A stretch of DNA of 64,000 nucleotides from Lachnospiraceae bacterium (GTDB taxonomy: Bacteria; Bacillota; Clostridia; Lachnospirales; Lachnospiraceae), in contig CAJTCH010000016.1 in NCBI GenBank assembly GCA_910574715.1, forward strand, positions 27,164 to 91,163, given 5' to 3'. Under the pieces are notes generated by a model. That model saw only the letters and a program-made list of their open reading frames with translations, was not told the origin of the DNA and did not search any database. Shown here piece by piece: positions 1-51,201 of the stretch. Within the stretch, counting starts at the first letter, position 1, and each line of letters opens with the position of its first letter. A program made the translations under genes and the position numbers.

Positions 1-79
1 CTTCTTCCATCTGGGGAATGATCATGTGCTCAAGAATCTCTCTCGCATGCTCCGATTCCAATAAATAAGCTACCTTCAT
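1..79 (-). CDS. saoD: DsrE-like protein, N-terminal fragment (SaoD-like), cut by window edge
   Basis: Only the first 26 codons are inside the window. They start MKVAYLLESEHARE and are preceded by a clean AGGAGG at 87-92. The hydrophobic beta strand followed by a helix fits the start of small DsrE/DsrF-type sulfur-relay proteins, but the piece is too short to prove this. It lies 22 bp downstream of the MerB-like gene on the same strand, so it is probably the next gene of that operon. The name follows the DsrE-related member I recall for the proposed Sao system. The identification depends mostly on context. Confidence 0.4.
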   Translation of the reverse strand, partial: MKVAYLLESEHAREILEHMIIPQMEE

Positions 80-101
80 TCTTACACCTCCTGTGTTAGA
101 T

Positions 102-722
102 TTATACTTCAAATGTTGCCTTTGCCTCTTCAACTGCCTTCTCTATGTCCGCCTTAATGATTGAATCCGGGTCAAGCTCCATATCCGTAACGTATTGATC
201 AAATTCTGCACCGCTGCAGAAGAAATTCATTACATTTCAGCAAGACCCTGCCCAGTTTGACAATTCTCCCAGAGGAAATGTCAGCGCATGCAGCGTCTTT
301 GGTTCATATTCATCCACCTTCTCATCCTTGATCCGGATATAGATCGGCTCGCCGCTCACCGCGCTCACCGAATTTACCTCGGTATCTTTATGGAACGTAA
401 ACGCGGCGCCGATGGCGTCGATGGCGCACATAGCAGAAAACTGCCTTCCGTCGTCAAGCGTAACCTGGTGGTTCGTCTTAAGGGCGGATACCGGATAGAT
501 GAAGTTCACCTTCCCCTTCTCGTCCACCACCATACCGTCTTTCTCTAGCAGACAGTCTGTGATCTCCTTATACTCCTCTTCCGTCATATGCAGGTACTCT
601 AACGCAGCTTCCTTATCATTCTCTATATGATAAGCCCGCCCATGATCCACCGTAAATTCTATAATATACAGTCTCAGTTCGTTCTGCCTGTCCGTAAATT
701 TTCTATGAACATTCTGATCCAA
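102..722 (-). CDS. saoL: MerB-like organomercurial-lyase homologue with predicted selenocysteine (SaoL-like)
   Basis: A 206-residue protein if the in-frame UGA at 237-239 is read as Sec. The first 161 residues contain CAID (C99, D102), which matches the Cys-x-x-Asp pair of MerB that protonates the carbon-mercury bond. Before the UGA comes WAGSC, and after it the frame continues NVMNFFCS for 44 residues to a TAA. That is the MerB block holding the adjacent cysteines C159-C160, so C161-U162 here replaces Cys-Cys with Cys-Sec. A 7-bp stem with loop GCGG lies 22 nt after the UGA. The start overlaps the end of the ABC ATPase gene by 20 bp. MerB splits alkyl-mercury bonds in the cytoplasm. The substrate here is unknown, and an organometal or a related soft metal is an inference. 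It is not a pseudogene, because homology runs through the UGA without a shift. Confidence 0.85.
204..221 (-). promoter_or_regulatory. SECIS-like hairpin for the UGA of saoL
   Basis: A perfect 7-bp stem (TTCTGCA with TGCAGAA) closes a GCGG loop. The loop begins 22 nt after the UGA at 237-239. Bacterial SECIS elements are hairpins just downstream of the UGA, inside the coding region, with G in the apical loop. Assignment is by geometry only. Confidence 0.6.
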
Positions 723-1560
723 CGAATTCTACCTCCTCATTCTTGCCTTTCTGTCCCTGAATAAATTCCATCAGGTCTTTATCCTCCTGCGTAAATACGC
801 CGCCGCTTAACGCATCCTTAAGGATCACCGTCAGGCGGTCCACATACTCATGATACTTAGGCGCCGTGCGGTCTCTCGGCCTTGGAAGATCGATCTTCAG
901 GTCTTCAATGATCTTCCCGTGGTCTCTGGACATCACCACAACACGGTCGCTTAAGTATATGGACTCATCCACATCATGGGTTACCATCAGCGCCGTAGTC
1001 TTCTTCTGCTGCAGGATCTCTTCAAGCTGCATCTGGAGCATCTGCCGCATCTGGAAATCTACCGCCCCAAGGGGCTCGTCCATCAGGAGCACCTGCGGAT
1101 CACACGCAATCGCCCGAAGAAGCGCTACTCTCTGTTTCATACCACCGGAAATCTCATGAATATAATAATGCTCGTAAGCCGTAAGCTGCGCCATCTCAAG
1201 CAGCTCCTTAAGCTGCGCCTTACGCTGTGCTTTCGGTACTTTCATCTTCTTCATAGGATACTCAATATTCTCTCCCACCTTAAGCCACGGAAATAACGCA
1301 TAATTCTGGAACATAAATGAACGGTCCGTGCCCGGCTTCTTCACTTCATTGCCATTCACTACGATCTTACCCTCATTCGCCTTCCGAAAACCTGCGATGA
1401 TTGTAAGCGTCGTAGTCTTACCGCAGCCGGACGGCCCAAGCAGTGATACGAATTCACCCTCTTCTACATTAAAAGAGACATCCTTAAGCACCACATTCTC
1501 CGGATCCCCCTTCTTCCTTCCTTTAAATACCTTCGTTATCCCTTCTACAGATATGGACAT
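703..1560 (-). CDS. saoA: ABC transporter ATP-binding protein, NitT/TauT class (SaoA-like)
   Basis: A 285-residue ATPase with every expected motif: Walker A GPSGCGKTT near residue 43, Q-loop QNYALFPWL, signature ISGGMKQRVALLRA, Walker B LLMDEPLGAVD and switch histidine VTHD. It is of the nitrate/sulfonate/taurine (SsuB/TauB) type, which fits the permease at 3993 and the substrate-binding proteins at 1592 and 6011. The C-terminal tail of about 30 residues ends in GSECS. The gene lies between the Sec-containing binding protein and the MerB-like gene, so transport and bond cleavage are co-transcribed. It should sit on the cytoplasmic face and power the Sec-containing permease. Confidence 0.9.
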   Translation of the reverse strand: MSISVEGITKVFKGRKKGDPENVVLKDVSFNVEEGEFVSLLGPSGCGKTTTLTIIAGFRKANEGKIVVNGNEVKKPGTDRSFMFQNYALFPWLKVGENIEYPMKKMKVPKAQRKAQLKELLEMAQLTAYEHYYIHEISGGMKQRVALLRAIACDPQVLLMDEPLGAVDFQMRQMLQMQLEEILQQKKTTALMVTHDVDESIYLSDRVVVMSRDHGKIIEDLKIDLPRPRDRTAPKYHEYVDRLTVILKDALSGGVFTQEDKDLMEFIQGQKGKNEEVEFVGSECS

Positions 1561-1591
1561 TCCTTAATCCTCTCTCTCTATCTCTATTCAT

Positions 1592-2377
1592 CTATGGCTG
1601 CCCCAGTGTCAGAAACCGAATCTTCTTATCCTTAAGCCAGTCTTCTTCCACCCCAAGCTTCCCGGCAAGAATCTCCGGATCATTCAGACTCTCGGCCGCC
1701 CGATTATAATTTTCTATAAATTCTCCAAATTCTTCCGTCTCCACAAACTTCTTATCCACTACCAGCACATAAGATATATAGTCCGTCTCTGAAATAGGCG
1801 CACACAGATAATCCGGTACATTCGCCGCCTTCGATATATCCTGGACTACTCCGTCCACCTGTCCGTTCTCCAGTGAATACAGAATCCCCTTCTGGGTGAT
1901 CTCCTGAAATTCTTCGATCTGTGGATAGGTCTCCCTCGCCTGCTCCTTCTCATTCTGCCTTCCCTGACTGATACCGACAGTTCTCACATCCGCCAGATCA
2001 CTCTTATAACACAGGACTTCCGCATTCATGATGACTGGGCCGTAGATCATGACATTCTCATTCTCCTCTATGGTATGCATAGCGATATGGCTGCAGTAGA
2101 ACGCCACATTGATCTCCTCCGCACTCAGTGCCCACTGAGCAAGATTACTTCAGCAGTCCTGAAATGACGAACTCTCATAATCCTCCGTAACCTTACATAC
2201 CCTGCCGAATTCCTCCACCGTTGCTTCCATCAGGACTCCGGAGATATCCGCTCCTGCTCCGACCCTCAGAGGCGCATCCTTATTCTGCCGCTCCTCTTTT
2301 GGGAAAAACACTGACACAAGTGTACCAACAAGTATCAGGCCTGATATAAAGACCGCAATCTTCCTGCCGTGCTCCAT
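1592..2377 (-). CDS. saoB: ABC transporter substrate-binding protein with predicted selenocysteine (SaoB-like)
   Basis: A 261-residue protein when the UGA at 2150-2152 is read as Sec76. The N-terminus has a positive start and a hydrophobic segment (about residues 7-24), a signal or anchor. The body resembles type-2 periplasmic-binding folds of the NitT/TauT class. The Sec directly follows Cys75 (SFQDC-U-SNLAQW), and the same frame continues without interruption for 185 more residues. Further Cys residues (FYCSHIA and LCYKS) could complete a metal site. A GCTCAGT/ACTGAGT stem with loop GGGC starts its loop 16 nt after the UGA. It lies 4 bp after the efflux permease and 31 bp before the ATPase. 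A Cys-Sec pair in an extracytoplasmic binding protein suggests capture of a soft metal or organometal, which is inference. Confidence 0.85.
2123..2140 (-). promoter_or_regulatory. SECIS-like hairpin for the UGA of saoB
   Basis: A 7-bp stem (one G-U pair) with loop GGGC. The loop begins 16 nt after the UGA at 2150-2152. It has the same layout as the hairpins after the other five proposed Sec codons in the window. Confidence 0.6.
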
Positions 2378-2381
2378 CTGC

Positions 2382-3542
2382 TTACGCTTCCTTCATTCTG
2401 GAATGCACCAGTCCGGATCTGATATATTTCCACAGAGAATACAGAGCATATGCGATCAGGACCAGGCTGCAGATCCACTCTCCCCACTCAGGTATGGTGA
2501 CCATAAGCTTGTTCGCATGCGCGATAGTATTCGATGTCCTGTCAAAATCCAGCACCGGAACAAATCCCGGCATCAGTAATTTGTTCGTGATCCAGCCCAC
2601 CAGATTGGAGATTCCGACTACCATGGTAAAATACATCATCATAGCCCTCTTCCCAATGGTCTTTGTGATCGTCAATAATTCCGGGATATTCGTCCCGGCT
2701 CCCGCCATCAAGAATGTGATGGCGACTCCAGGCGCCGCCCCGCTGGCAACCAGCGCCGCGATAAACGGGATATGGCCCACCGCACAGACATACATAAGTC
2801 CTGCAACCACCGTGATCCCGAGAAGGGATATCATGCCCGGATTCCCAAGATAATCCTGCACGAAGGACTGGGGCACGACCGTGAATAAGAAACCCGCGAT
2901 CAGCATCCCCGTAACCGTGTACTTGCTGATGGTCACACTCAATTCGGTCAGTGACCAGCGAAGCCCGCTCTTTACCTTCTCCCAGAACGACGGCTCTTCG
3001 AACTCAAGCTGGATCATGGCCGGCGCATCCTCGTCGTCGGATTCCAGCGTAATCCTTCCCTCCTCTTCTTCCTGCTTCTTATGGATCTTATTGATCCCGA
3101 TATGTAATTCGTCGCCGGCGTACTTATTCGCCACCATGCCGATGATCATCGGCGCGACAAATCCCGTAATAACATAGATAATGGTAATCTCTTTGCCCAA
3201 CAGCCCCCAGGATAGGATCACCGCCAGCGGATTGATCATAGGCGTACTGGTCATGAACGCCAGCGTCGGCCCCAGATAAGCCCCGCTGTAATACATACTG
3301 ATGCCAAGAGGAATCGTTCCGCAGCTGCAGATCGGTATAAACATCCCCGACACCGTCGTCCAGAACACACCGCTCGCCCGCTTTGAGCCGATGGACGTCT
3401 TCTGTACCTTCTCAGGCTTCAGAAATTCATGCAGCAGACCAGCTACGACAAAACTGAATACCAGCCACGGTGATGAACTGTTGAGCATCGACCACGCTGA
3501 CACTACTATACTGGACAGAAACCCCCACAAATCTCCTATCAT
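2382..3542 (-). CDS. saoE: Efflux permease with CSC motif, ArsP/DUF318-like (SaoE-like)
   Basis: A 386-residue integral membrane protein with about 8-10 hydrophobic segments and a soluble acidic loop (about residues 155-185). It has the family motif FIPICSCGTIPLG with C72 and C74 near the second membrane helix. This is the hallmark of permeases such as ArsP, which exports trivalent organoarsenicals through paired thiols, and of related metal exporters. The start codon overlaps the stop of the thioredoxin-like gene (ATGA), so the two are translationally coupled. In this operon it is the natural exit route for the product of the MerB-like enzyme. The actual substrate cannot be read from sequence. 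Confidence 0.8.
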   Translation of the reverse strand: MIGDLWGFLSSIVVSAWSMLNSSSPWLVFSFVVAGLLHEFLKPEKVQKTSIGSKRASGVFWTTVSGMFIPICSCGTIPLGISMYYSGAYLGPTLAFMTSTPMINPLAVILSWGLLGKEITIIYVITGFVAPMIIGMVANKYAGDELHIGINKIHKKQEEEEGRITLESDDEDAPAMIQLEFEEPSFWEKVKSGLRWSLTELSVTISKYTVTGMLIAGFLFTVVPQSFVQDYLGNPGMISLLGITVVAGLMYVCAVGHIPFIAALVASGAAPGVAITFLMAGAGTNIPELLTITKTIGKRAMMMYFTMVVGISNLVGWITNKLLMPGFVPVLDFDRTSNTIAHANKLMVTIPEWGEWICSLVLIAYALYSLWKYIRSGLVHSRMKEA

Positions 3543-3793
3543 ATCTTCAACGCCTCCTCGAATGCTTTACGCACGGCAGGCTTGGTCAGCTTCGTCACTG
3601 CCTTCTTCTCGTTGATGACCAGCATACTCTTGGTCACCGCACCGTACTTCTTGATATAATCAAAATCCTGACCTGCGCGATAGATCTTCACATTCACTCT
3701 TCCTTCATATTCTTTCTCCAGGACTTGAACCAAGTCTCCAAACACTTCACATCATGCACATGCACTGATATATTCGATGCAAGGCTTCTTCAT
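3539..3793 (-). CDS. saoT: Small thioredoxin-like protein with predicted selenocysteine (SaoT-like)
   Basis: An 84-residue protein. The start chosen is the ATG at 3791-3793, preceded by GGGAGGT, because a GTG downstream at 3745 would remove the active site. The reading is MKKPCIEYISACA-U-CEVFGDL, with the UGA at 3752-3754 as Sec14. C12, U14 and C15 form a C-x-U-C motif on the first loop of a glutaredoxin/thioredoxin-type fold; the rest (VNVKIYRAG, then MLVINEKK) gives the expected strands. The predicted SECIS stem GACTTG/CAAGTC has loop GTT starting 21 nt after the UGA. The protein is much shorter than thioredoxin (about 105 residues), like the mini-thioredoxins used as metal or redox carriers. 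It is first in the minus-strand operon and couples into the efflux permease. Confidence 0.85.
3722..3736 (-). promoter_or_regulatory. SECIS-like hairpin for the UGA of saoT
   Basis: A perfect 6-bp stem (GACTTG with CAAGTC) and loop GTT, whose first loop base is 22 nt from the UGA at 3752-3754. It lies inside the coding sequence. Confidence 0.55.
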
Positions 3794-3992
3794 TCACGGC
3801 ACCTCCCAACAATTTATTCCATCTTAATTATAGCTATTATAGCTTTATTCGCCCGCACTTTCCGGTTTTATAAAAAAATACAATATTCGACACCGACTTT
3901 ATTTTTTTGTATAATATTTCTATTATAATTATTAAAATTTTGTTATGATTTGGCTGTATATATTATCCTCAATTCATAAGGGAGGTGAACAA
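3794..3992. promoter_or_regulatory. Divergent promoter region between saoT and saoP
   Basis: About 200 bp, very AT-rich, between the minus-strand operon and the permease gene. TATAAT-like boxes are present on both strands (3910-3915 on the plus strand; 3827-3832 and 3836-3841 on the minus strand). A plus-strand pair TTCGAC with an 18-bp spacer and TATAAT at 3910 is a plausible promoter for the permease. No clear operator was found. Confidence 0.5.
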
Positions 3993-4814
3993 TTGGGAGA
4001 TAACAAACAGGTAGATCGTATGATACACGCTACCAAGACAAAAGACCGACAGAATTGGCGGAAAATGGGCGGCAGGAATTATAACAAGGGCGCGATCTTT
4101 TCCCTGGCCCTGATCTGTGTGATCTGGTATTTTGCCGCTCACGCAGTAAAAGCCCCGTTTATATTTCCGTATTTGGAGAATGTGGCCTATCAGGTCGTTT
4201 ATTCATTAACCGATATGTATGTTTTAGAGAATCTTGCCATCACCATGCGGCGAGTCGTGACCGGTTCTCTGTACGCATTCCTGATCGGATTCCCGCTTGG
4301 AATGGTCATGGGATATTCACCCAAGCTTTTACAGACCATGTCCCCATTCATCAATTCCCTGCGTCAGGTACCGATCATGGCCTGGGTGCCGCTCACCATC
4401 GTATGGTTTGGTATCGGGGACGGACCTACTGTTTTCCTGATCGCGTTCAGCGGTATTTTTACGATCATCCTCAATACCGTTTCCGGCGTACAGGATATTA
4501 GTAAGGATTTCTACAATGCCGCCAGATCCATGGGCGCGAACACATTCAATATCATCAAAGATATCGTAATTCCGGGTTCTCTCCCCGGAGTGCTTACCGG
4601 CATACGTCTGGCGATCGGACTTGGCTGGATGTCCGTCATATGAGCGGAGTTCATTGCGACAAGTGCCGGATTCGGTTACATAATGGTGGAAGCACAGGGA
4701 CGGTTAGAGACAGAGCGCGTCATCGCTTATATGGTGATCGCCGGTCTGATCGGATACCTGATGGATACCATCCTGGTATTGTGCGAGAGAGCACTGCTTA
4801 GATGGAAAGAATAA
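3993..4814 (+). CDS. saoP: ABC transporter permease with predicted selenocysteine (SaoP-like)
   Basis: A 273-residue permease of the NitT/TauT (SsuC/TauC) class. I start it at TTG 3993 because GGGAGGTG at 3980-3987 is well placed for it; the ATG at 3945 has no ribosome site. An in-frame UGA at 4641-4643 (codon 217) interrupts the end of the conserved cytoplasmic-loop region: GLGWMSVI-U-AEFIATSAGFGY. In ordinary relatives this is the same block with Ala, Val or Cys at the UGA position, and the frame then runs 56 more codons through the last membrane helix to TAA. Five or six hydrophobic helices are visible. It is divergent from the operon that encodes its ATPase and binding protein. A Sec inside an ABC permease could pass a thiophilic ligand along, which is inference. 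Confidence 0.85.
4663..4679 (+). promoter_or_regulatory. SECIS-like hairpin for the UGA of saoP (weaker)
   Basis: A stem of about 6 bp with a G-U pair and one bulged T (GTGCCG with CGGTTAC) and loop GATT. The loop begins 25 nt after the UGA at 4641-4643. It is the weakest of the six hairpins but similarly placed. Confidence 0.4.
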
Positions 4815-4859
4815 TTTCGGACGGAACAAAGGCATGGCCACCGGGTTGCCGCCGTCAGC

Positions 4860-4905
4860 AAAAGGCTGCTGCATATATGATCCTGTCATTATGCAGCAGC
4901 CTTTT
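4860..4905. terminator. Bidirectional terminator between saoP and the LysR gene
   Basis: A perfect 15-bp inverted repeat (AAAAGGCTGCTGCAT and its complement) with a T-run on both strands. It lies between convergent genes and overlaps the last codon of the LysR gene. Confidence 0.85.
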
Positions 4906-5812
4906 ATGAGTATTTTTCTGCGCAGTATCTTCGAAGCGCTTCTATGGTCCGTTCCGACACGATGCTTAATTTCCTGTCTTTGTGATACATCAGATAGATC
5001 TGACGCTTCGTATTCACATTCTCAAAATTAAACTCTAACACCTTCTGCTTATCCAATGATTCCTTTGCCGCCGTCCTGCTGATGAATGCGACTCCGCCGC
5101 CGGCCTCTACCGCCCGGCGCACCAGCTCCGATGATTCAAACTGCGCCGCCACATGAAGGGATGCGTGATTCAATTTCAGTCCCTCTTCCACATTCTCAGA
5201 GGCCGTCTTGGTCCCGCTGCCAAGCTCCCGTATCACGAACCACTCCCGGCGGAGCTGCTCAATGGGGAACTCCCCGTTCAGGTTCCTGTATTTGGCCTGG
5301 TTCGGCGTGATCAATATGATCTCGTCTTCAAAGAGGATCTCCGAATAGATCTTATCATTCCCGCTGGTCAGGCCGCCGATCCCGATCTCCACATCATAAT
5401 TCAAGATCTTCTGCAGCACATTCCCGCTGTCCCCCTCCGATACCTTGAAGCTGATATCCATATTCTTTGCCCGAAATGAAGCTAAGAACTGAGGGAACAT
5501 ATAGTTCCCGGGAACGGACGAAACCGCCATGGAAACTACCCGGCCCGCCTCATTCTCATTCCGGTTCAGCTGCTCCAATGCCTGATTCTCTGTCTCTAAT
5601 AACTGCAGCGCAAACGGATAGAATACTCTACCCTCCTCAGAGAGAACGATATCCTTCGTAGAGCGCACCAGAAGCTGTACTCCAAGCTCCGATTCCAACT
5701 GCTTGATATGTGTACTGATCGTGGGCTGCGACAGATACAGATACTTTGCAGCCAGTGAAAAACTCTTATAATTAACGACTCCAATAAAGCTTCTTACGTA
5801 TTCTAAACGCAT
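4904..5812 (-). CDS. LysR-family transcriptional regulator of the Sec locus
   Basis: About 302 residues. I start at the ATG at 5810-5812 (MRLEYVRSFIGVV), which has GGGAGAAG upstream; an in-frame start 11 codons earlier lacks one. The N-terminal winged helix is typical (SFSLAAKYLYLSQPTISTHIKQLE), followed by a CysB-like substrate-binding domain. It resembles the LysR group often found next to selenium-metabolism genes, recalled from memory. It sits between the permease and the second binding protein and is divergent from the latter, so it probably controls the 6011 gene and perhaps the whole locus. The ligand is unknown. Confidence 0.85.
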   Translation of the reverse strand: MRLEYVRSFIGVVNYKSFSLAAKYLYLSQPTISTHIKQLESELGVQLLVRSTKDIVLSEEGRVFYPFALQLLETENQALEQLNRNENEAGRVVSMAVSSVPGNYMFPQFLASFRAKNMDISFKVSEGDSGNVLQKILNYDVEIGIGGLTSGNDKIYSEILFEDEIILITPNQAKYRNLNGEFPIEQLRREWFVIRELGSGTKTASENVEEGLKLNHASLHVAAQFESSELVRRAVEAGGGVAFISRTAAKESLDKQKVLEFNFENVNTKRQIYLMYHKDRKLSIVSERTIEALRRYCAEKYS

Positions 5813-5877
5813 ATCTTCTCCCTCGATCCTAAAATATCTCATCATTTATTATATTGCTTTTTACTATTCTGGTCTAA

Positions 5878-5929
5878 TTGAAAATGATGATATATTTAAC
5901 CTCTTTATTTGAAATGATAATATATTTTA
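5878..5929. promoter_or_regulatory. Two direct repeats, candidate LysR operator
   Basis: TTGAAAATGATGATATATTTA at 5878-5898 and a near copy at 5909-5929, with starts 31 bp apart, about three helical turns. They lie in the divergent region between the LysR gene and the 6011 gene, where a LysR regulator normally binds. Confidence 0.45.
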
Positions 5930-6010
5930 TTAGTCCTTTTTCTTCTCAGGCTCTTCTGCTATGATGAATGTAAATATTAATAAATATTAATTTTTTAAAG
6001 GGGGATACCA

Positions 6011-7288
6011 ATGAAAAAGAAATTAATTGCATCACTACTGGCTGCGGCTATGCTCTGTTCTCTTCTCACAGCATGCCATAACAGCAGCGAGACCAATACC
6101 GTAGATGTTGAATCCACAGATTTTGATCCCAAGAAGGCAGTGGAGGACTATGAGTTCGGCGAGTTAAGCGAGGAAGAGAAGAACTATACCGTGGAGATGG
6201 GCTACTTCAACTGTGACCATATGTGTGCCTCCATTATCGGAGAGAAATCCGGGATCTACGAGGCTCTTGGCCTGAAGGTCAACCTTACCAAATCTCCTGA
6301 GACAGTGAATGCCCTGATCAGCGGCGCCATGGACGTGGGATACATCTTCTTCAGCAAGAACCTGATGTCAGATGACTCCCCTGTTTATCAGGCAGCAGCC
6401 AACCACTTAGGCGGCTCCCGGTATCTCGTAGTCAGCAACGATATCGATGTAGACGATCCGCTCTCCATCGAAGGCAAGACCATTTCCATGGATGCCGAAC
6501 CGCAGGTTAACTCCGAGTGGAGAAAATGGTCCGAAGAATACGGCTTCTCCTTCCAGCCAGAGGATTACGACATCGTTGCCATGGGACAGAAGGATGCCAT
6601 GTTCGCGCTGAAGGCAGGACAGATCGACGCATTCACCTGCTGCGACCCATACGCTTCCCAGGCAGAATTCGAAGGCTTCGGCAAGATCATGTGTATCAGT
6701 TGGGGCGCGAACCTGGAAGAAGGCGAGCTTCTCACCGAAGAGAATGCCGGAACCTGCTGCAGCTACGCCATGTCTGTCGCTTTCAGGGAGAAGTATCCGG
6801 AGCTTGCACGCCGTCTTGTCTATGCCCATATGCTCTCTGTCAAATATTTATACGAGCATCCGTATAACGCAGCCATGATGTTCGCCGACGGCTTCGATGT
6901 AGACCCTTACGTAGGACTTCGTACCGTATATATGAAGACGGTAGCAGAAGGCCGGACCATCACCTGGCAGTGGTCCGAACAGACCATGCAGAACAATGAA
7001 GATTTCCAGACACAGTGGAAGGATCCGGCCGTACCGGAAGAGGATATCATCTTTGCCAAGGATTCTATGAAGTCTCTGGAACTATCCAACGAGATCTTTG
7101 AAGAAGCCGGTGTTCCGGACTTTGATGAATTCATCAAGGATTCCGTGGAAGACAAGTTCCCGCTTGGAATGACCTTCGAAGACTGGTACAATGCCGCTAA
7201 GAAGATCGACAATATCTCAGACGAAGATGCGGTCGACATTACCGATACCGCAACACCTTATCTGAACGAGAATCTGGAAGAAGAATAG
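6011..7288 (+). CDS. Cys-rich substrate-binding lipoprotein, NitT/TauT type
   Basis: A 425-residue lipoprotein with signal peptide and lipobox LLTAC (lipid on Cys22), and a ribosome site AAAGGGGG upstream. The fold matches NMT1/ThiY-like and SsuA-type binding proteins. It is unusually rich in paired cysteines: C68-x-x-x-C72 (NCDHMC), adjacent C210-C211 (FTCCDPYA) and adjacent C249-C250 (GTCCSYA), plus C228. It has no UGA; the adjacent Cys pairs look like the Cys-only version of the Cys-Sec pairs elsewhere in the locus. The acidic C-terminal tail (NENLEEE) is unusual. It probably delivers a thiol-bound ligand to the Sec-containing ABC transporter, either as an alternative to the 1592 protein or together with it. 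Confidence 0.85.
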   Translation: MKKKLIASLLAAAMLCSLLTACHNSSETNTVDVESTDFDPKKAVEDYEFGELSEEEKNYTVEMGYFNCDHMCASIIGEKSGIYEALGLKVNLTKSPETVNALISGAMDVGYIFFSKNLMSDDSPVYQAAANHLGGSRYLVVSNDIDVDDPLSIEGKTISMDAEPQVNSEWRKWSEEYGFSFQPEDYDIVAMGQKDAMFALKAGQIDAFTCCDPYASQAEFEGFGKIMCISWGANLEEGELLTEENAGTCCSYAMSVAFREKYPELARRLVYAHMLSVKYLYEHPYNAAMMFADGFDVDPYVGLRTVYMKTVAEGRTITWQWSEQTMQNNEDFQTQWKDPAVPEEDIIFAKDSMKSLELSNEIFEEAGVPDFDEFIKDSVEDKFPLGMTFEDWYNAAKKIDNISDEDAVDITDTATPYLNENLEEE

Positions 7289-7297
7289 GCTTAATAT

Positions 7298-7331
7298 AAG
7301 GCGCCGTGAATCTGTCATGTTCCGGCGCCTT
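7298..7331. terminator. Terminator after the 6011 lipoprotein gene
   Basis: A 9-bp GC-rich inverted repeat (AAGGCGCCG / CGGCGCCTT) 10 bp after the stop, between convergent genes. The T-run is short. Confidence 0.65.
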
Positions 7332-7353
7332 GTATATTATTGCCCGATTCCTG

Positions 7354-8970
7354 TCATCTCACCCGCGGAAAGTCTAAGATGAACATCGTCCCCTTTCCTT
7401 CCTCTGTCTTCACACGTATCGAGCCTCCATGCTCCTCCGTAAGCCTCTTTACTACCGTAAGCCCAATCCCCGTTCCTTCCCCGCCCTCTTTCGTCGTGAA
7501 GAACGGATGAAATACCTGCTGTCTGATATCTGCCGGAATCCCGGCTCCGCTGTCCTCTACCACGAGGCGGACAGTCTTTTCATCATCCACGCTGAGTCCG
7601 AACTGGATCCGAAGCGTCCCTCCCTCCTTCATCGCATGGAGGGCGTTGGTCGTCAGGTTCAGAAGGATCTGATTCAAAGCGCCTGCCTGTCCGCGGATAT
7701 AGTAAGAGTTCCTGCTGAGGTTCTCTCTTAGCTTCACCTCTTTGGGAAGCAGCTTCTTCACGATATTCACCGCCTCCTGTATCGCAAGAGCGGCGTCATA
7801 TTCCGTATACACCTTCTCCGCCCTGCCCTGACGGCTGTAGCTTAGAAGCTGTCTCGCCAGCTCCTCGCATCTGCCCGCGGCGCTCTTTAGCTCCGTAACC
7901 TCCTCCGGCATCTCGTTAAAAACCGTCTCATTCTCCTCCAACAGATCGGCATACAGTACGATCGGCGTCATAAGGTTGTTAAACTCATGGGCAATGGATC
8001 CCGTCAGCACACTCATAGTCTTCGAGTGATTATATCTCTGCATCAGTCCCTCCTGCTGCCTCATCGTCTCATTCAGGGTCTTCTCGTGTTGTAACTCCCT
8101 CACCAGAAGCTCTTCCTTCTTCCTCTGTTCCGTGATCTTATAGATCAACGCCGCGGCACAGAGGATTGCCGCAGTTCCAAGCAGACAGAAATAAAAAGCG
8201 ATCTGCTCGATGGGCTCTATGATCTGCTCATAATCTTCAATAATATAAAGATAGAACTCCTCTTCTCCTATCTCCAGGGCTTCATAGGCGACAAGCTTTC
8301 TCGTTCTCGTCGGCGTTCCGCTCTCCGTCTCATAGACCCATTCGATCGTACAGCCGTTACGATCCATATGGGTAAGAGAGATCTCTTCCTTCGCATCCTT
8401 TCCCGGCATCACGGTGGTTCCGTCCGCCCCCTTCACGATACAATACCTGCCGTTCTCAAGCCAGAGTCCTGACAATGCCTGTTCCTGGGCATAGATCTCA
8501 TCCAGATTAAGCTCAGCCATCACATACCCTGAGATCCTCCCGCCCATTCCTACTGCCTTTGTCATATACAGGATGTAATATCCCTCTTCTGACTTCCTCA
8601 CCGGTCCGGTAATAACGGCTCCGGGGCTTTCTCCTGCCCGCTCACAGAGTCTGTGCTCCCAATCTCTCAGTTCCTCTAACTCTTCGATCGGAATATAGCT
8701 TCCCTTCTCCCGCAGCCGTAGAAGTCCGGTCTCAATATCCTCTTCCTTCCTCATGCCGCCTGAGAACACCGCATAGAGCAGATTCGCCTTCGCCTCCAGG
8801 CTCGACTGGAGACTCTTGGCATTCACTTGAGCAAGGCTTCTTAAGCTCTCCTGTTCATTTAAAACGATCGATCTTCTCACATCCTGATAGCTGAATACGG
8901 CAATCCCGAACAATGCCGCCACTCCAGCTGCCGTCACTAGGATCTGCCTCCTAAGTCTCTTCTTATTCAT
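7354..8970 (-). CDS. Membrane sensor histidine kinase
   Basis: A 538-residue kinase. TM1 is at about residues 9-27, followed by an extracytoplasmic sensor region of about 225 residues (Cache/PAS-like, not certain), TM2 at about 256-277, a short coiled coil, the dimerisation box with phospho-accepting His328 (GSIAHEFNNLMTP), and an ATPase domain with N box, DSGAGIP and GEGTGIGL. The HEFNN type of H-box is that of NtrB/HWE-distant kinases that often act with various regulators. It is divergent from the response regulator gene 98 bp away, which is its likely partner. Its position inside the Sec locus suggests it senses the locus's substrate, but this is inference. Confidence 0.85.
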   Translation of the reverse strand: MNKKRLRRQILVTAAGVAALFGIAVFSYQDVRRSIVLNEQESLRSLAQVNAKSLQSSLEAKANLLYAVFSGGMRKEEDIETGLLRLREKGSYIPIEELEELRDWEHRLCERAGESPGAVITGPVRKSEEGYYILYMTKAVGMGGRISGYVMAELNLDEIYAQEQALSGLWLENGRYCIVKGADGTTVMPGKDAKEEISLTHMDRNGCTIEWVYETESGTPTRTRKLVAYEALEIGEEEFYLYIIEDYEQIIEPIEQIAFYFCLLGTAAILCAAALIYKITEQRKKEELLVRELQHEKTLNETMRQQEGLMQRYNHSKTMSVLTGSIAHEFNNLMTPIVLYADLLEENETVFNEMPEEVTELKSAAGRCEELARQLLSYSRQGRAEKVYTEYDAALAIQEAVNIVKKLLPKEVKLRENLSRNSYYIRGQAGALNQILLNLTTNALHAMKEGGTLRIQFGLSVDDEKTVRLVVEDSGAGIPADIRQQVFHPFFTTKEGGEGTGIGLTVVKRLTEEHGGSIRVKTEEGKGTMFILDFPRVR

Positions 8971-9068
8971 AATACCTCTTTTGGAAAATATTTGACATCA
9001 AAAACGCTGCCCGATATAATCTATGATAACAGAAGCACAACACTCACAGAAAGGCAGGAATCAATCAT

Positions 9069-9776
9069 ATGTCCAATATCACCGTTCTCATTGTTGATGA
9101 TGAAGCACCCGTATTAAAAGCTATATCCTCCGTACTAAGGCATGAACAGATAGATGCCGTCTGCGCTTCCGACAGCACGGACGCTTTCGCATGCCTTGCC
9201 CGTCAGACCTTTGACCTGATCCTTCTGGATATCATGATGCCGGGTCAGGACGGCTTCTCTATGCTGCGGGAACTTAGGGAACGGAAGATCTTAACCCCTG
9301 TGATCCTCCTAAGCGGCAGGGAAGAAGACTCGGCCCAGGTAGAGGGTCTTGGTCTCGGCGCGGACGATTATATGACCAAGCCCTTCAGCAAGGCCGTGCT
9401 GGTCTCCAAGATCCGTGCCATCGTAAGGCGCACACAGCAGTATATCCCCGCCGCTTCTTCCGGCGCGCCTCTGTCCACAACTGCACAGGTGGGTGCCTTC
9501 ACTCTGCATTTTGATTCGCAGACCGTATATAAGAATGACAAGGAGATCTCCCTGTCCTCCAAGGAATTCTCCCTGCTGTGCTTTTTTATGGAGAATCCCG
9601 GGGTGCTCCTGACCAAACAGGAGATCTTCACCAAGGTATGGAAGAGCGAGACTCTGGATGACAACTCCATCCTTGTATACATCAAGCGTCTCCGTGATAA
9701 GATCGAAGACAACCCTTCCAAGCCAAAGCACCTGACCACAGTGTGGGGCAAGGGATATTGCTTCCATCCCTCTTAA
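9069..9776 (+). CDS. OmpR/PhoB-family response regulator
   Basis: A 235-residue regulator. The receiver domain has the acid pair DD (residues 10-11), phospho-acceptor Asp54 in LLDIMMPG and Lys in TKPFSK. A Trans_Reg_C winged helix follows, ending in the usual YIKRLRDKIEDNP and VWGKGYCF. It is divergent from the 7354 kinase and convergent with the Cys-Sec-COOH protein gene. The likely targets are the genes around it. Confidence 0.88.
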   Translation: MSNITVLIVDDEAPVLKAISSVLRHEQIDAVCASDSTDAFACLARQTFDLILLDIMMPGQDGFSMLRELRERKILTPVILLSGREEDSAQVEGLGLGADDYMTKPFSKAVLVSKIRAIVRRTQQYIPAASSGAPLSTTAQVGAFTLHFDSQTVYKNDKEISLSSKEFSLLCFFMENPGVLLTKQEIFTKVWKSETLDDNSILVYIKRLRDKIEDNPSKPKHLTTVWGKGYCFHPS

Positions 9777-9785
9777 GACTGGCTT

Positions 9786-9802
9786 ATCTGCCGCCGGCAG
9801 AT
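9786..9802 (-). promoter_or_regulatory. SECIS-like hairpin in the 3' UTR of saoC
   Basis: A perfect 7-bp stem (ATCTGCC with GGCAGAT) and loop GGC. The loop begins 20 nt after the UGA at 9816-9818, beyond the UAG that ends the gene. It could double as a weak terminator between convergent genes, but there is no T-run. Confidence 0.55.
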
Positions 9803-9812
9803 CAATCTACGC

Positions 9813-10415
9813 CTATCAGCAGTCTTCCATCCCTTCGCCGAACAGGTTGACGGTCTCCCCTTCCACCACACGGAAGATTCCGTATCCTACCTTATTGTCC
9901 TTCTGCCCCTGGAGAACGAACTCTATCTCGTCCTTCTTGTCTATGTTCTGGAACTGGATCTTCTGGTTCTCCACAGGTGCCGGGATCGGCTCTGTGAATT
10001 CATAATTCACTCCGTCCCCGGAATCAATGGCTACCGTAAGCCGGATATGCTTATGCCGTCCAAGATTCTCGGTCCCTACATGCTCGTCATCTTCCGTAGT
10101 AGCAAATATAACAACCAGATCCTTAAGCCCGTCATTGGTAAGATCCTCCTCACAAGCCGCCAACACCTCCGCCTCCGGATGCTCCTTATGAAAAGCTCCA
10201 AGGGTCGGATGCTCATCCGGTACATTCTCGGCGTAAGCCAAAGCCCTGCCAACCCTGTCTCCCTCGGAATATACATTGACCTCTCCCTCTCCTTCCCGCG
10301 TCTGCTGCCGCTCATACAGGCCGTCAAGCCTCCCCCGGATCAGGAAACCTGCCAATATTACCAGAATGATGATAACCATCTTCCCTCTTGTTTTTTTCAA
10401 AAATACTTTATCCAC
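9813..10415 (-). CDS. saoC: Membrane-anchored protein ending in Cys-Sec-COOH (SaoC-like)
   Basis: A 200-residue protein if the UGA at 9816-9818 is read as Sec. The codon after it is UAG (9813-9815), so Sec would be the last residue after Cys199 (GEGMEDC-U). The N-terminus has one membrane helix (about residues 13-26) after basic residues, and the rest is outside. The middle carries DLTNDGLKDLVVIF, like calcium-binding FG-GAP/dockerin-style loops. This matches a family I recall as 'Cys-Cys-COOH (seleno)protein SaoC'. A hairpin with SECIS geometry lies 20 nt downstream. A C-terminal adjacent thiol-selenol pair on a flexible tail resembles the C-terminal redox tail of thioredoxin reductase or the vicinal-Cys tail of mercury reductase, and could hand over metal or electrons. 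If UGA acts as stop, the protein simply ends in Cys199. Confidence 0.78.
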
Positions 10416-24174: not shown

Positions 24175-24189
24175 GATCTGTTTGATCTG

Positions 24190-24543
24190 GCAAGCAAAAC
24201 GATAAGCCGGGTTATGTCGTTGGGTAATCATCTATCTAGGCCCACCGTCGCCGATGGGCTCAAGCGACCTACCTAAGACGTGACGGGCCGCCACATCGTC
24301 TTTTTCCGGTCTTGCTTCGGATGGGGTTTACATATGCCCCTGCTGTTACCAGCAGGGCGGTAGTCTCTTACACTGCCCTTCCACCCTTACCGTGCGGGTC
24401 CCGCACGGCGGTTCATTTCTGTTGCACTATCCTTGGAGTCGCCTCCACCGGACGTTATCCGGCATCCTGCCCTGTGAAGCCCGGACTTTCCTCACCTGCT
24501 GCCTTTCGGCTCCTGCAGCTGCGATTACCTGTCTTACTTGCAA
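24190..24543 (-). ncRNA. rnpB: RNase P RNA component, bacterial type A-like
   Basis: About 354 nt on the minus strand. Hallmark blocks are the 5' GAGGAAAGTCCGGGC (about 24484-24498), CCGGAUAACGUCCGG hairpin, the ACAGAAA segment, and the 3' conserved end with AACCCGGCTTATCG. The terminal P1 helix forms from GCAAGT at the 5' end and GCTTGC at 24190-24195. This catalytic RNA matures the 5' ends of tRNAs. Ends are set by P1 pairing and by the promoter at 24549-24578. Confidence 0.93.
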
Positions 24544-32205: not shown

Positions 32206-33525
32206 TTACTCATGGATCAATGCATGCTGTCCTTCCTCGGGAGCCTCAGTCAGCATCTTAAGCGCCTCTTCTACCAGCCCTTTACGGAACTTCACTTCCT
32301 GTTCTGCCGGAAGAGACGGGTTGCCAAATACATGGAGTACACTGTTGCCGCGAAGGATTCTGTGTGAACCGATACCTTCGGAAATTTTTGTAAGGTTCGT
32401 TACATGAATCACCGGGATTCCGGCCCTCTCGATTTCCTTAACCATCACTGCACCGCAGCGAGAACTGGTACCTCATGTGGAGGTCAGGATCGCCGCATCC
32501 ACCTGGTTATCCAGCAATCCCTGCGCGATTCCTTCACCGAATTTCTTACCCACATCCATAGGCGTCATAACGCCCGCAGTGGTATAATAAGACGTCAGGA
32601 CGTCCCCGATCTTACCCTCTTTCTTAAGTGCAACGGCAGCATCCACAGGGATCAGACGGTTCGGATCCTGCAGGACAAACGCATTGTTATAGCCCTGATG
32701 GCTGACTTCATAATCTGCCGCATCCAGCCTCTCCACGTCTCCAAAGGAGTAATTCTTGAAATACTTGGAGTTGGTGGGAACCATATTGTCCGGATTGCCC
32801 TTGGGTACCAGACCTCCGTCCGTTACGAATGCAAGACGGATCTCGCTAAGCGGTTTCTCAAGGACCGGAAGCGGAATATCCTCGTGGTTCGGCATCATAA
32901 CTTCTGTACGGAAGTTCCTGTGATAGAACTTATTAAGCAGCATATTCAGCCCTCGTGCGGACGCCGGCATAGTATAATCAATATCGATCGCCGGTCCGGA
33001 ACCGTGGAAGCCCTCTTTCTTACCGTCGCCGATAAACTCACCCTCAGCCAGACGCTTCGCGAAAGCTGCGATCTCCTTCATGGCCTTGCGCATCTTGGCG
33101 GCATTATTCTCTGTCTGCAGGATATACGCACGGTCTTTGTAGAGATCTGTTCCGGGATTCTCGGAATAAAGCCCGGTCACTGCCGGGAGTTTTAACTTCT
33201 CCGTCACCGCAGCCGCAGCCGCCCCGCAGCCAAGCCCGTAACGCCCCGCATTGAATCCGGGACCCGCGATAAATAGCTGGCCGTTATATTTCTTCACGAT
33301 CTCAAGGAATTCATTACATACTTTCTCTGTATTTTCGGCAATATAATTGTCGCCGCATATGATCGTTGCCGCGATCTCATAATCATCGCCAAGCAGGCCC
33401 CTAAGCAGCAAACCAGGCCCAACCGGCTCTTCCTTCACACTAATACCAACACTGGCCGTATCTTCTCCGCCCATTCCAGCATAGAACTGATTGATATAAT
33501 GTATGACTCTAATCTTCTCTGCCAT
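32206..33525 (-). CDS. GrdB/GrdF/GrdH-like reductase subunit with selenocysteine
   Basis: 439 residues with the UGA at 32473-32475 read as Sec351. The sequence around it is LTST-U-GTSSRCGA, the signature of component B selenoproteins of glycine, sarcosine and betaine reductase. The frame continues 88 codons to TAA. Other family blocks are present: IHYINQFYAG at the start, AGPGFNAGRYG, and TDGGLVPKGNPDN. The 7-bp stem with loop GGT begins its loop 18 nt after the UGA. In known enzymes this subunit attacks a C-N bond and passes a carboxymethyl group to GrdA. Here the partner GrdE-like gene is 12 bp upstream but no grdA, grdC or grdD is in the window, so the substrate is not predictable. No specific gene symbol is justified. 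Confidence 0.88.
32445..32461 (-). promoter_or_regulatory. SECIS-like hairpin for the UGA of the GrdB-like gene
   Basis: A 7-bp stem (TCGCTGC with GCAGTGA, one G-U pair) and loop GGT. The loop begins 18 nt after the UGA at 32473-32475. Confidence 0.6.
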
Positions 33526-35195: not shown

Positions 35196-36023
35196 TTATT
35201 TCTTCCGATATTCCTGTAGGCGCTGTACCGCGTCCTCTGCCATCTGCACGCGGTACAGATATTCTCTCTGTCCTGCCAGAGAAGGCTTCCCAAAAGGATA
35301 GCAGACATTATCTCCCTTTATCACACGGCTGATACCCGTATCGACTGCGATCTGCGTCAGGTTCGTCACCTGCACCACCGGGATCCCCTTTAACTCCAGT
35401 TCCTTCCCTATATAGGCCCCGCATCTGGTACTGGTTCCGCATGCCGAGGTAATGATCACGGCATCCACCTGTTTCTCCATAACATAAGAAGCGATCCGCC
35501 TTCCCAGCCGGATACTCTTTTCTGCCGATGTCATCACGCCCGTTGTCGCAATGAAACTATCATATAGCTTGCCGATCTTCCCGCATCTCTCCAGTTCCCG
35601 CAAAGCATCCACCGGAACCAAGCGGTTGGGATCTTCCTCAACATAGCGATTATCATAACCCTGATGACAGACCTCATATTCTTCTTTTTCTAATCTTAGC
35701 TTTCCTCTTATATCATATACTCCATAGCGGCCGGCATTCGTCGATGGTATTCGGTCCGGATTCCCCTTGGGAACCAGCCCGCCGTCCGTGATCACTAATA
35801 TCACCGCATCCTTCAACGGACACTTCAGATTCGGAATACGGACAGTATCCATAGCTTCCATAAGGACCTCGCTCTGGAACGGCTCCCCGTTGTATTTCGC
35901 AAGAAGCATATCCAGACATCTGGCGGGAGCCGGTTTCTGATAGTTGATGAACGGAATCAGATTCCCGCTGCCCTTCCTTCTGCTCTCCGGATTGGAATAT
36001 ATGTAATCCGTCTGATTTAACAT
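35196..36023 (-). CDS. Truncated GrdB-like protein with Cys in place of Sec
   Basis: 275 residues that match the C-terminal 60% of the 32206 protein: NYQKPAPARCLDMLLAKY, TDGGLVPKGNPDRI, EEDPNRLVPVDAL, then TSACGTSTRCGAYIG with Cys195 where the Sec should be. Cys201 keeps the downstream Cys. The N-terminal domain (about 165 residues) is missing; the ATG overlaps the TetR stop by 7 bp and no upstream homology is left, so this is the true size. It ends normally with FGKPSLAGQREY. It may be a regulatory or redox partner, or a domain that works with another subunit. The TetR gene upstream is co-transcribed. Confidence 0.85.
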   Translation of the reverse strand: MLNQTDYIYSNPESRRKGSGNLIPFINYQKPAPARCLDMLLAKYNGEPFQSEVLMEAMDTVRIPNLKCPLKDAVILVITDGGLVPKGNPDRIPSTNAGRYGVYDIRGKLRLEKEEYEVCHQGYDNRYVEEDPNRLVPVDALRELERCGKIGKLYDSFIATTGVMTSAEKSIRLGRRIASYVMEKQVDAVIITSACGTSTRCGAYIGKELELKGIPVVQVTNLTQIAVDTGISRVIKGDNVCYPFGKPSLAGQREYLYRVQMAEDAVQRLQEYRKK

Positions 36024-50056: not shown

Positions 50057-50995
50057 TTATCTTAGCTCCACCGCAATTACCTCAGCAGGATTAAACAGCC
50101 GAATCGGCACCGAGTGTACTCCAAGCCCTCTGCTCACTACCACGCATGCTTCTTTGGCCTGGTAACAGCCGCCTGAGAACTTCGGAAACGGTGTGAAATC
50201 CGGCGCGATCACGCCTCCGATCCCTGGTATGCCTACCACTCCTCCATGATAATGTCCGCACAGGATAAGATCTGCCCCCCACTCCTGATAAGCTTCCACA
50301 TGCCCGGGATGGTGTGCCAGCAAGATCTCATAAGCTTCCCCGGCCTTCCCGACCCGCTCTTCGATATCCTTCACCCGGACCTTCCCCTTAGCAGCGCGCT
50401 CATAGCCGCGCATCGGGATCTCCAACCCTGTGATCCGTACCCTTGCCCGACCCCATCGAAAGACCGCAGAATCATTCTCCAGGAAATGGATCCCCGCCCT
50501 AAGAAGCCGCTCCTTATACTCGCGGTACGACTGCCTGTATTTCCTTGGCCGTTCCTTAAGCTTCTGCTCATGGTTGCCGTTAGCATAATATACCGGGCAG
50601 ATCCTGGGCAGACCCGACAGGAATTCGGCCGTATGCCCGTAAGAATATCCGTCCGTCCGGATCAGCATATCCCCGCCGATCAGGATCAGATCCGGCTTCT
50701 CTTCGGCGATCGCTTCATACAATATCTCATTCTTCTTCCCATAACGGTAATTGTGAAGATCACTTAAGAATATAAGCTTTCTGCCCCGTTCAAGTCCGGC
50801 AAGCTTCGGCGAATCCGCTGTGTAATGTGTTACCTGAAAACAGCGCAGTTCACGGATGATCTCACCGACCGCCGCCAGCAGACCGAGCAGGGCTGTTATA
50901 ATAAATGGTTTCAATCTTTTTCTCCTCTTCGATGCTTTCCCGCCGTTCTCGGCGTCCATGATACTCGGATTGCTCCGTGCTATGCACTCCCGCAA
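50057..50995 (-). CDS. Membrane-anchored metallophosphoesterase (YkuE-type)
   Basis: 312 residues. A membrane helix at about residues 30-48 is followed by the calcineurin-like motifs: IFLSDLHNY, GGDMLIR, YANGNHEQ, AHHPGH and GHYHGG. The family acts on phospholipid headgroups or small phosphodiesters at the membrane. It is divergent from the aminopeptidase gene. Confidence 0.88.
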   Translation of the reverse strand: MRECIARSNPSIMDAENGGKASKRRKRLKPFIITALLGLLAAVGEIIRELRCFQVTHYTADSPKLAGLERGRKLIFLSDLHNYRYGKKNEILYEAIAEEKPDLILIGGDMLIRTDGYSYGHTAEFLSGLPRICPVYYANGNHEQKLKERPRKYRQSYREYKERLLRAGIHFLENDSAVFRWGRARVRITGLEIPMRGYERAAKGKVRVKDIEERVGKAGEAYEILLAHHPGHVEAYQEWGADLILCGHYHGGVVGIPGIGGVIAPDFTPFPKFSGGCYQAKEACVVVSRGLGVHSVPIRLFNPAEVIAVELR

Positions 50996-51201
50996 TCCTA
51001 AAATACCTCAATTCCGCTCTAAACACGCACGCTCACTCCGCGCCATTCACCATCAGGATGCGTCCTTGTGCCAGCACAAACTTATCCTGATAATGAATGA
51101 CGAGTGAACTGTAACTCATTATATAATTATTCCTGTTATTTTGCAAATGGATATGTTAGAATAATTTATTAGGAAATATAGTAAGAAAGGAAGGGATTGA
51201 C

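Follow-up and report, generated by a model that had tools for sequence, protein, structure and literature searches.

A selenocysteine-rich sao gene cluster in a Lachnospiraceae genome and its predicted role in the handling of a soft-metal compound

The Sao gene cluster was reportedly first described by Haft and Gwadz in 2023. In passages of one review, the "SAO (Sec-assisted organometallic)" operon, Sec standing for selenocysteine, is credited to Haft and Gwadz 2023, and SaoL, SaoB, SaoC, SaoP, SaoT and SaoX are listed as selenoproteins (PMC13188914). Here we describe a sao cluster found in a stretch of 64,000 nucleotides (the window) that corresponds to bases 27164-91163 of contig CAJTCH010000016.1 (C16) in the 5.8 Mb draft genome of a Dorea-like Lachnospiraceae bacterium (estimated contamination 6.3%). 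The cluster occupies positions 1-10415 and is complete except for saoD, which crosses the window edge; from saoC through saoD it spans about 10.7 kb of a single contig. When UGA is read as Sec, all nine Sao families (SaoA, SaoB, SaoC, SaoD, SaoE, SaoL, SaoP, SaoT and SaoX) exceed their curated NCBIfam cut-offs in hmmscan searches, and Sec or Cys stands at the sites reported for the system (Cys-Sec in SaoL, SaoB and SaoC; Sec in SaoT and SaoP). Because the nine families, the Sec/Cys columns and the Sec machinery of the host are found together, the cluster is a new example of the published Sao system. This identity had been suggested in an earlier note made on this DNA from its letters, and the nine families bear it out; saoD, which runs from position 79 leftward past the edge, was missing from that note. 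In a survey of the order, at least 3 of 295 genomes, this one counted, carry SaoP over its cut-off, a lower bound since at most eight candidates were scored per genome.

We predict, with a probability of roughly 0.6, that the cluster, with its UGA codons read as Sec, binds, imports, cleaves and expels a soft-metal compound, with an organomercurial as the most likely candidate. This chain of capture, import, cleavage and export, which we infer from the sequences, would begin outside the cell, where SaoC with its Cys-Sec tail, SaoB with its Cys-Sec pair and the lipoprotein SaoX would hold the metal through selenolate and thiolate ligands. Import would fall to SaoA and SaoP, and the Sec of SaoP would bind the metal on or close to its way through the membrane. 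Within the cell, SaoL would cleave the bond between carbon and metal by protonolysis as MerB does, its Sec taking the part of Cys159. SaoT and SaoD would either maintain thiols and selenols in the reduced state or hand the metal on, and SaoE would expel the inorganic ion. A two-component pair would likely regulate the sao genes in the lineage of the window, and a MerR-type metal sensor would do so in another lineage.

The five in-frame UGA codons, in saoL, saoB, saoT, saoP and saoC (Table 1), are likely read as Sec. The frame stays open beyond the UGA for 44 residues in SaoL, 185 in SaoB, 70 in SaoT and 56 in SaoP, and in saoC the UGA (9816-9818, minus strand) is the final codon, directly before a TAG at 9813-9815. 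The earlier note had placed one such codon in each of these five genes, with a frame that continues past it in the first four and with a Cys next to the Sec in four of the five (C161-U162, C75-U76, U14-C15 and C199-U200); all of this is correct, and each of the five proteins exceeds its own Sao cut-off. The note had also proposed that the UGA columns be compared with those of relatives. An alignment of SaoX located 36 loci, one of which (L021) was dropped as identical in sequence, leaving 35 plus the window; their columns hold Sec or Cys, with the Sec of SaoT displaced by two positions in some. The SaoL column has 18 U, 1 C and 2 gaps in 21 rows, and the SaoB column 19 U, 9 C and 1 gap in 29 (window included in these and the following column counts). 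Column 14 of SaoT has 23 U, 4 S and 2 G in 29 rows, and all six non-U rows have U at column 12, U-x-S/G-C replacing C-x-U-C in these six loci. The SaoP column has 27 U, 2 gaps and 1 V in 30 rows, the V belonging to a different permease (L036, 86 bits), and a first survey found U in 33 of 33 saoP copies above 200 bits. SaoC gives 12 U and 17 C among 30 rows, the remaining row (L056) being misaligned; SaoX gives 8 U, 27 C and 1 gap in 36 rows, and SaoE 3 U, 24 C and 2 gaps in 29. Thus the frequency of Sec falls from SaoP and SaoT (every clear row) through SaoL (all but one), SaoB (two thirds), SaoC (about two fifths) and SaoX (about a quarter) to SaoE (three loci). SaoX is the second binding protein that the earlier note had named as a possible extension of the system; it is a standard Sao family.

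Two loci of one genus (L067 and L068) contain all-Cys sao clusters with zero UGA codons within the matched proteins. The six L067 proteins that were scanned (SaoE, SaoT, SaoB, SaoX, SaoC and SaoD) all exceed their Sao cut-offs, and SaoP does so in both loci. The idea that SaoP never carries Cys was rejected, since Cys was found in these two loci. A restriction of all-Cys loci to genomes that lack Sec machinery was unsupported as well: selB is over its cut-off in genome G107 but not in G135, a draft 78% complete. A second, C-terminal Sec at the stop TGA of saoT (window 3539-3541, minus strand; 10 U and 4 C among 29 rows) was set aside because in the window this TGA overlaps the start of saoE like a usual stop. 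Clusters L049-L054 each hold two tandem saoP copies with Sec in both. At L032, L033 and L034 saoX stands without other sao genes in the stretch examined, with Sec in two of the three; L032 and the cluster L035 belong to the same genome.

An alternative in which the genes have decayed and the UGA codons are true stops or errors of sequencing is so improbable as to be negligible: the same columns are U or C across dozens of loci, hairpins follow the UGA codons, and the Sec machinery is present. The search for this machinery elsewhere in the genome, also proposed in the earlier note, placed selB (366 bits against a cut-off of 242) on contig C13, some 6 kb from tRNA-Sec (64.5 bits against a gathering threshold of 47). 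YedE lies between the two, and selA (602 bits, cut-off 268), selD (365 bits, cut-off 125) and YedF adjoin them. In all 29 relative genomes searched selB is over its cut-off. Another likely selenoprotein of the window is a reductase subunit of the GrdB/GrdF kind whose frame contains a UGA (32206-33525, minus strand; TIGR01918, 418 bits, cut-off 65), with an Rfam SECIS_4 match at 32435-32472 (38.2 bits, gathering threshold 38); a shorter GrdB-like frame (35196-36023, minus strand) has, by eye, Cys at the place of its neighbour's UGA (SACGTSTRCG).

The hairpins were scored by a rule for structures resembling the bacterial selenocysteine insertion sequence (SECIS) that was written after the window's own hairpins were known; for SaoC it was applied to the rows of a first alignment (9 U and 17 C, one C row misaligned). 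A hairpin with a perfect stem follows the UGA in 18 of 18 SaoL sites (3.5 expected from shuffles), 13 of 19 SaoB sites (2.5 expected), 21 of 23 SaoT sites at column 14 (3.6 expected) and 9 of 9 SaoC sites (1.7 expected), and in two of the six SaoT sites with U at column 12 and one of the three SaoE sites. When U and C rows of the same column are compared, it is found after 13/19 U versus 1/9 C in SaoB, 9/9 versus 3/17 in SaoC and 8/8 versus 11/27 in SaoX, i.e., 30/36 versus 15/53 when the three are summed. Under a looser rule SaoE rises to 3/3, the SaoB contrast becomes weaker (10/19 U versus 4/9 C) and the sum is 27/36 versus 21/53 (Fisher p = 0.0012, with rows that are related by descent). 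The hairpin of saoC sits beyond the stop codon, and protein coding therefore cannot explain it. Folding energy after the UGA did not separate the sites (z from -2.7 to +0.9 in the window), and in SaoB the U sites fold less well than the C sites.

The lyase is the protein on which the proposed cleavage step depends. SaoL belongs to the MerB family of Pfam (PF03243; 85 bits, cut-off 27), as the earlier note had supposed when it spoke of a MerB-type lyase, and its C99, D102 and U162 align with the catalytic residues Cys96, Asp99 and Cys159 of MerB. U162 falls on Cys159 in all five profile alignments, and all 18 rows that have letters at these positions keep C99 and D102. Among 29 genomes with saoX, SaoL is over its cut-off in 19, weak in 3 and without a match in 7; one match (L029) covers 43 residues only. 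It was not found in the two genomes with all-Cys clusters, which are drafts 85% and 78% complete. The lyase thus appears to be optional to a Sao core of import, redox and export functions, to which cleavage would be added in most cases.

SaoB was modelled with a binding-protein fold of the TauA/SsuA/NrtA type, and fold searches with SaoC gave weak matches, with FG-GAP/beta-propeller blades as a candidate fold. In SaoP the EAA loop is followed by a helix that contains the Sec, at a position occupied by Ala in NrtB (8w9m); a literature search on NrtB pore residues returned nothing useful. SaoE carries PF03773 (ArsP_1), in agreement with the ArsP-type permease of the earlier note, and stays under the cut-off of the SO_0444 Cu/Zn efflux transporter equivalog (210.4 versus 300 bits). 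In three relatives (L026, L027 and L041) an in-frame UGA of saoE stands precisely where the MYV-C-AVGH motif has its conserved Cys, and the two such copies scanned (L026 and L041) score 518 and 530 bits with the SaoE profile. SaoE may therefore be a further Sao selenoprotein in some lineages. The ArsP_1 domain also suggests a different substrate, namely trivalent methylarsenicals, whose import would be followed by demethylation through SaoL and export through SaoE; by established thiol chemistry, trivalent arsenic would be well matched by the vicinal Cys-Sec pairs. However, none of the 14 shared neighbour families listed looks arsenic-related (judged by eye, with only some of them scanned with models), and to our knowledge MerB does not cleave carbon-arsenic bonds; we consider this reading very unlikely.

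Which metal is handled can be approached through the regulators and neighbours of the cluster. In the lineage of the window, 12 loci have a sensor kinase within the sao cluster and 11 have a response regulator there, the window included, in line with the earlier suggestion that regulators extend the system; a response-regulator match of 125 bits in L052 was excluded as no kinase match stands beside it. Cys177 of the kinase is conserved in every one of 13 aligned rows (the query copy plus 12 loci), and Cys109 in 11 of them. In six loci a MerR-family gene comes immediately before saoX. One of the encoded proteins (L044) has a Cys where the cadmium sensor CadR has Cys and the copper(I) sensor CueR does not, and each of the remaining five contains a Cys within the same stretch; Cys at the CadR position marks divalent-metal sensors. 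Directly after saoD, just outside the window, there is a gene for a 66-residue HMA-like protein with the motifs CCPDC and CDCDHC (L018:19440-19637, minus strand), which is also found in L023, L026, L029 and L041, with its six Cys kept in these four relatives. Taken together, the MerR-type Cys, the kinase Cys, the HMA-like protein and the MerB chemistry favour mercury or a like ion.

Several observations weigh against the proposed organomercurial pathway. A perfect-stem hairpin follows the UGA in 0 of 27 SaoP sites, and RNAalifold found no SECIS stem across 33 SaoP sites, although with one bulge permitted 17 of 27 sites have a hairpin (5.9 expected). SaoL remains far under the MerB equivalog cut-offs (43.8 versus 193 and 42.3 versus 200 bits), and when its sequence alone is aligned to 1s6l, a gap is introduced by which C161 rather than U162 would fall on Cys159. 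The two MerR-family genes scanned match CueR, CadR, ZntR and MerR models, all under cut-off, the HMA-like protein stays under the Pfam HMA cut-off (16.8 versus 24.8 bits), and each of these genes occurs in a minority of loci. In addition, carbon-metal cleavage cannot be the whole purpose of the system, since Sao clusters without SaoL exist. It is possible, though somewhat unlikely in our view, that the core serves the acquisition or detoxification of an inorganic soft metal and that SaoL is an accessory which widens it to organic forms: besides the genomes with absent or weak SaoL, the two all-Cys loci retain SaoA, SaoB, SaoC, SaoD, SaoE, SaoP, SaoT and SaoX without it. On the other hand, SaoL, where it exceeds its cut-off, is mostly inside the cluster, and several of the SaoL-free genomes are incomplete drafts or short contigs.

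Other genes point to selenium. The cluster includes a LysR regulator of the selenium-metabolism class (NF040786), a Se/S-carrier-like gene (Se_S_carrier, PF11823) adjoins it, with similar genes in many relatives, and Sao genes together with double-cubane protein genes are reported, in passages of one paper, from type 1 mlp methyl-selenide methyltransferase clusters (PMC10418091). Sao could then be a salvage system that imports selenium in methylated or other organic form, cleaves the carbon-selenium bond with SaoL and passes the selenium to SelD through SaoD and the carrier-like protein. We regard this as improbable, because a starvation system made of selenoproteins would fail when needed, an ArsP-type exporter is included, the MerB active-site residues are kept and a CadR/MerR-like regulator adjoins in six loci.

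If the organomercurial pathway is correct, it may have a bearing on the gut. Passages of one study describe signs of methylmercury breakdown in human faeces, with merB lacking in all faecal samples (PMC8220164). Carriers of SaoL include Merdimonas, Extibacter, Flavonifractor and Dorea-like genomes, among others, which appear to be gut-type. We tentatively suggest, with the odds against it, that SaoL is an overlooked anaerobic methylmercury demethylase of gut bacteria, i.e., a Sec-containing MerB to which RHg+ would be carried along the selenolates of SaoC, SaoB/SaoX, SaoP and SaoL, with SaoE (a Sec protein in some lineages) draining the product. It would have been overlooked because gene calls end at the UGA and because its scores fall under the MerB equivalog thresholds; some searches would see it, however, since the broad Pfam model matches SaoL even when it is truncated at the UGA (58.7 bits, cut-off 27).

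Table 1. Features of the sao locus, in window positions. The saoT score was obtained with 3536-3793, one codon longer than the gene, and the saoP score with the alternative open start at 3945.
Feature	Position	Strand	Evidence
saoD, 5' part, DsrE-related	1..79	-	NF040732 190.3 bits, cut-off 169; remainder at L018:19650-19979, flanking contig
saoL, MerB-like lyase, Sec162, UGA 237-239	102..722	-	NF040728 207.3 bits, cut-off 140
SECIS-like hairpin 3' of saoL UGA	204..221	-	7-bp stem
saoA, ATP-binding cassette (ABC) ATPase	703..1560	-	NF040729 439.8 bits, cut-off 360
saoB, binding protein, N-terminal hydrophobic helix, C75-U76, UGA 2150-2152	1592..2377	-	274 bits, cut-off 140
SECIS-like hairpin 3' of saoB UGA	2124..2139	-	perfect-stem scan
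saoE, ArsP_1/SO_0444-like efflux permease, Cys253	2382..3542	-	NF040736 565.3 bits, cut-off 325; PF03773
saoT, thioredoxin-like, CAUC motif, UGA 3752-3754	3539..3793	-	NF040730 104.6 bits, cut-off 65
SECIS-like hairpin 3' of saoT UGA	3722..3736	-	perfect-stem scan
saoP, ABC permease, UGA 4641-4643	3993..4814	+	NF040733 397.7 bits, cut-off 295
Bulged SECIS-like hairpin 3' of saoP UGA, weak	4663..4679	+	looser rule; fails perfect-stem scan
LysR-family regulator, selenium-metabolism-associated class	4904..5845	-	NF040786 290.9 bits, cut-off 250
saoX, lipoprotein-type binding protein, Cys211	6011..7288	+	NF040735 436.8 bits, cut-off 300
Sensor histidine kinase	7354..8970	-	Pfam HisKA, HATPase_c over cut-off; dCache_1 under
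OmpR-type response regulator	9069..9776	+	profile scan
saoC, N-terminal hydrophobic helix, Cys-Sec-COOH end	9813..10415	-	NF040734 166.9 bits, cut-off 80
SECIS-like hairpin 3' of saoC UGA, beyond reading frame	9786..9802	-	7-bp stem

Among the wider neighbours, a double-cubane reductase-like family is found near sao in 13 loci, and the one member that was scanned reaches 491 bits (cut-off 350). A molybdopterin oxidoreductase family recurs in 9 loci. Neither family was recognised among the frames of window positions 1-14 kb. After the cluster come genes for a GGGtGRT protein and for one that resembles NifU (L018:17155-18983, minus strand), likewise in L023. Elsewhere in the window, a class A RNase P RNA is located at 24187-24540 and a Clostridiales-1 small RNA at 50959-51110, both on the minus strand.

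The system is of interest since it concentrates Sec on a single task. Gut methylmercury breakdown without merB can be tested directly through SaoL, which keeps the catalytic residues and misses the NCBIfam MerB cut-offs, and the all-Cys clusters provide a natural comparison of Sec with Cys across an entire pathway. With MerB, SaoL shares the Pfam family and the Cys/Asp/Cys active-site positions but has Sec in place of Cys159. With the ArsP and SO_0444 efflux permeases, SaoE shares the PF03773 domain; passages of the review give SO_0444 a UxC motif and do not name SaoE among the Sao selenoproteins (PMC13188914), whereas the Sec of the SaoE relatives is at MYV-U-AVGH. The same passages give SaoT a UxxC motif, and that of the window is CAUC. 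The type 1 mlp clusters reportedly hold both Sao and double-cubane genes (PMC10418091); in the present genome both double-cubane genes lie away from sao, on contigs C4 and C34. With the Sao system itself, the locus shares all nine gene families, the Sec positions and the clustering; it differs in a SaoX with Cys and in the kinase-regulator pair and HMA-like gene, which are extras. Sec-containing SaoE, all-Cys loci, regulators and neighbours may thus be extensions to the Sao set as given in the sources consulted.

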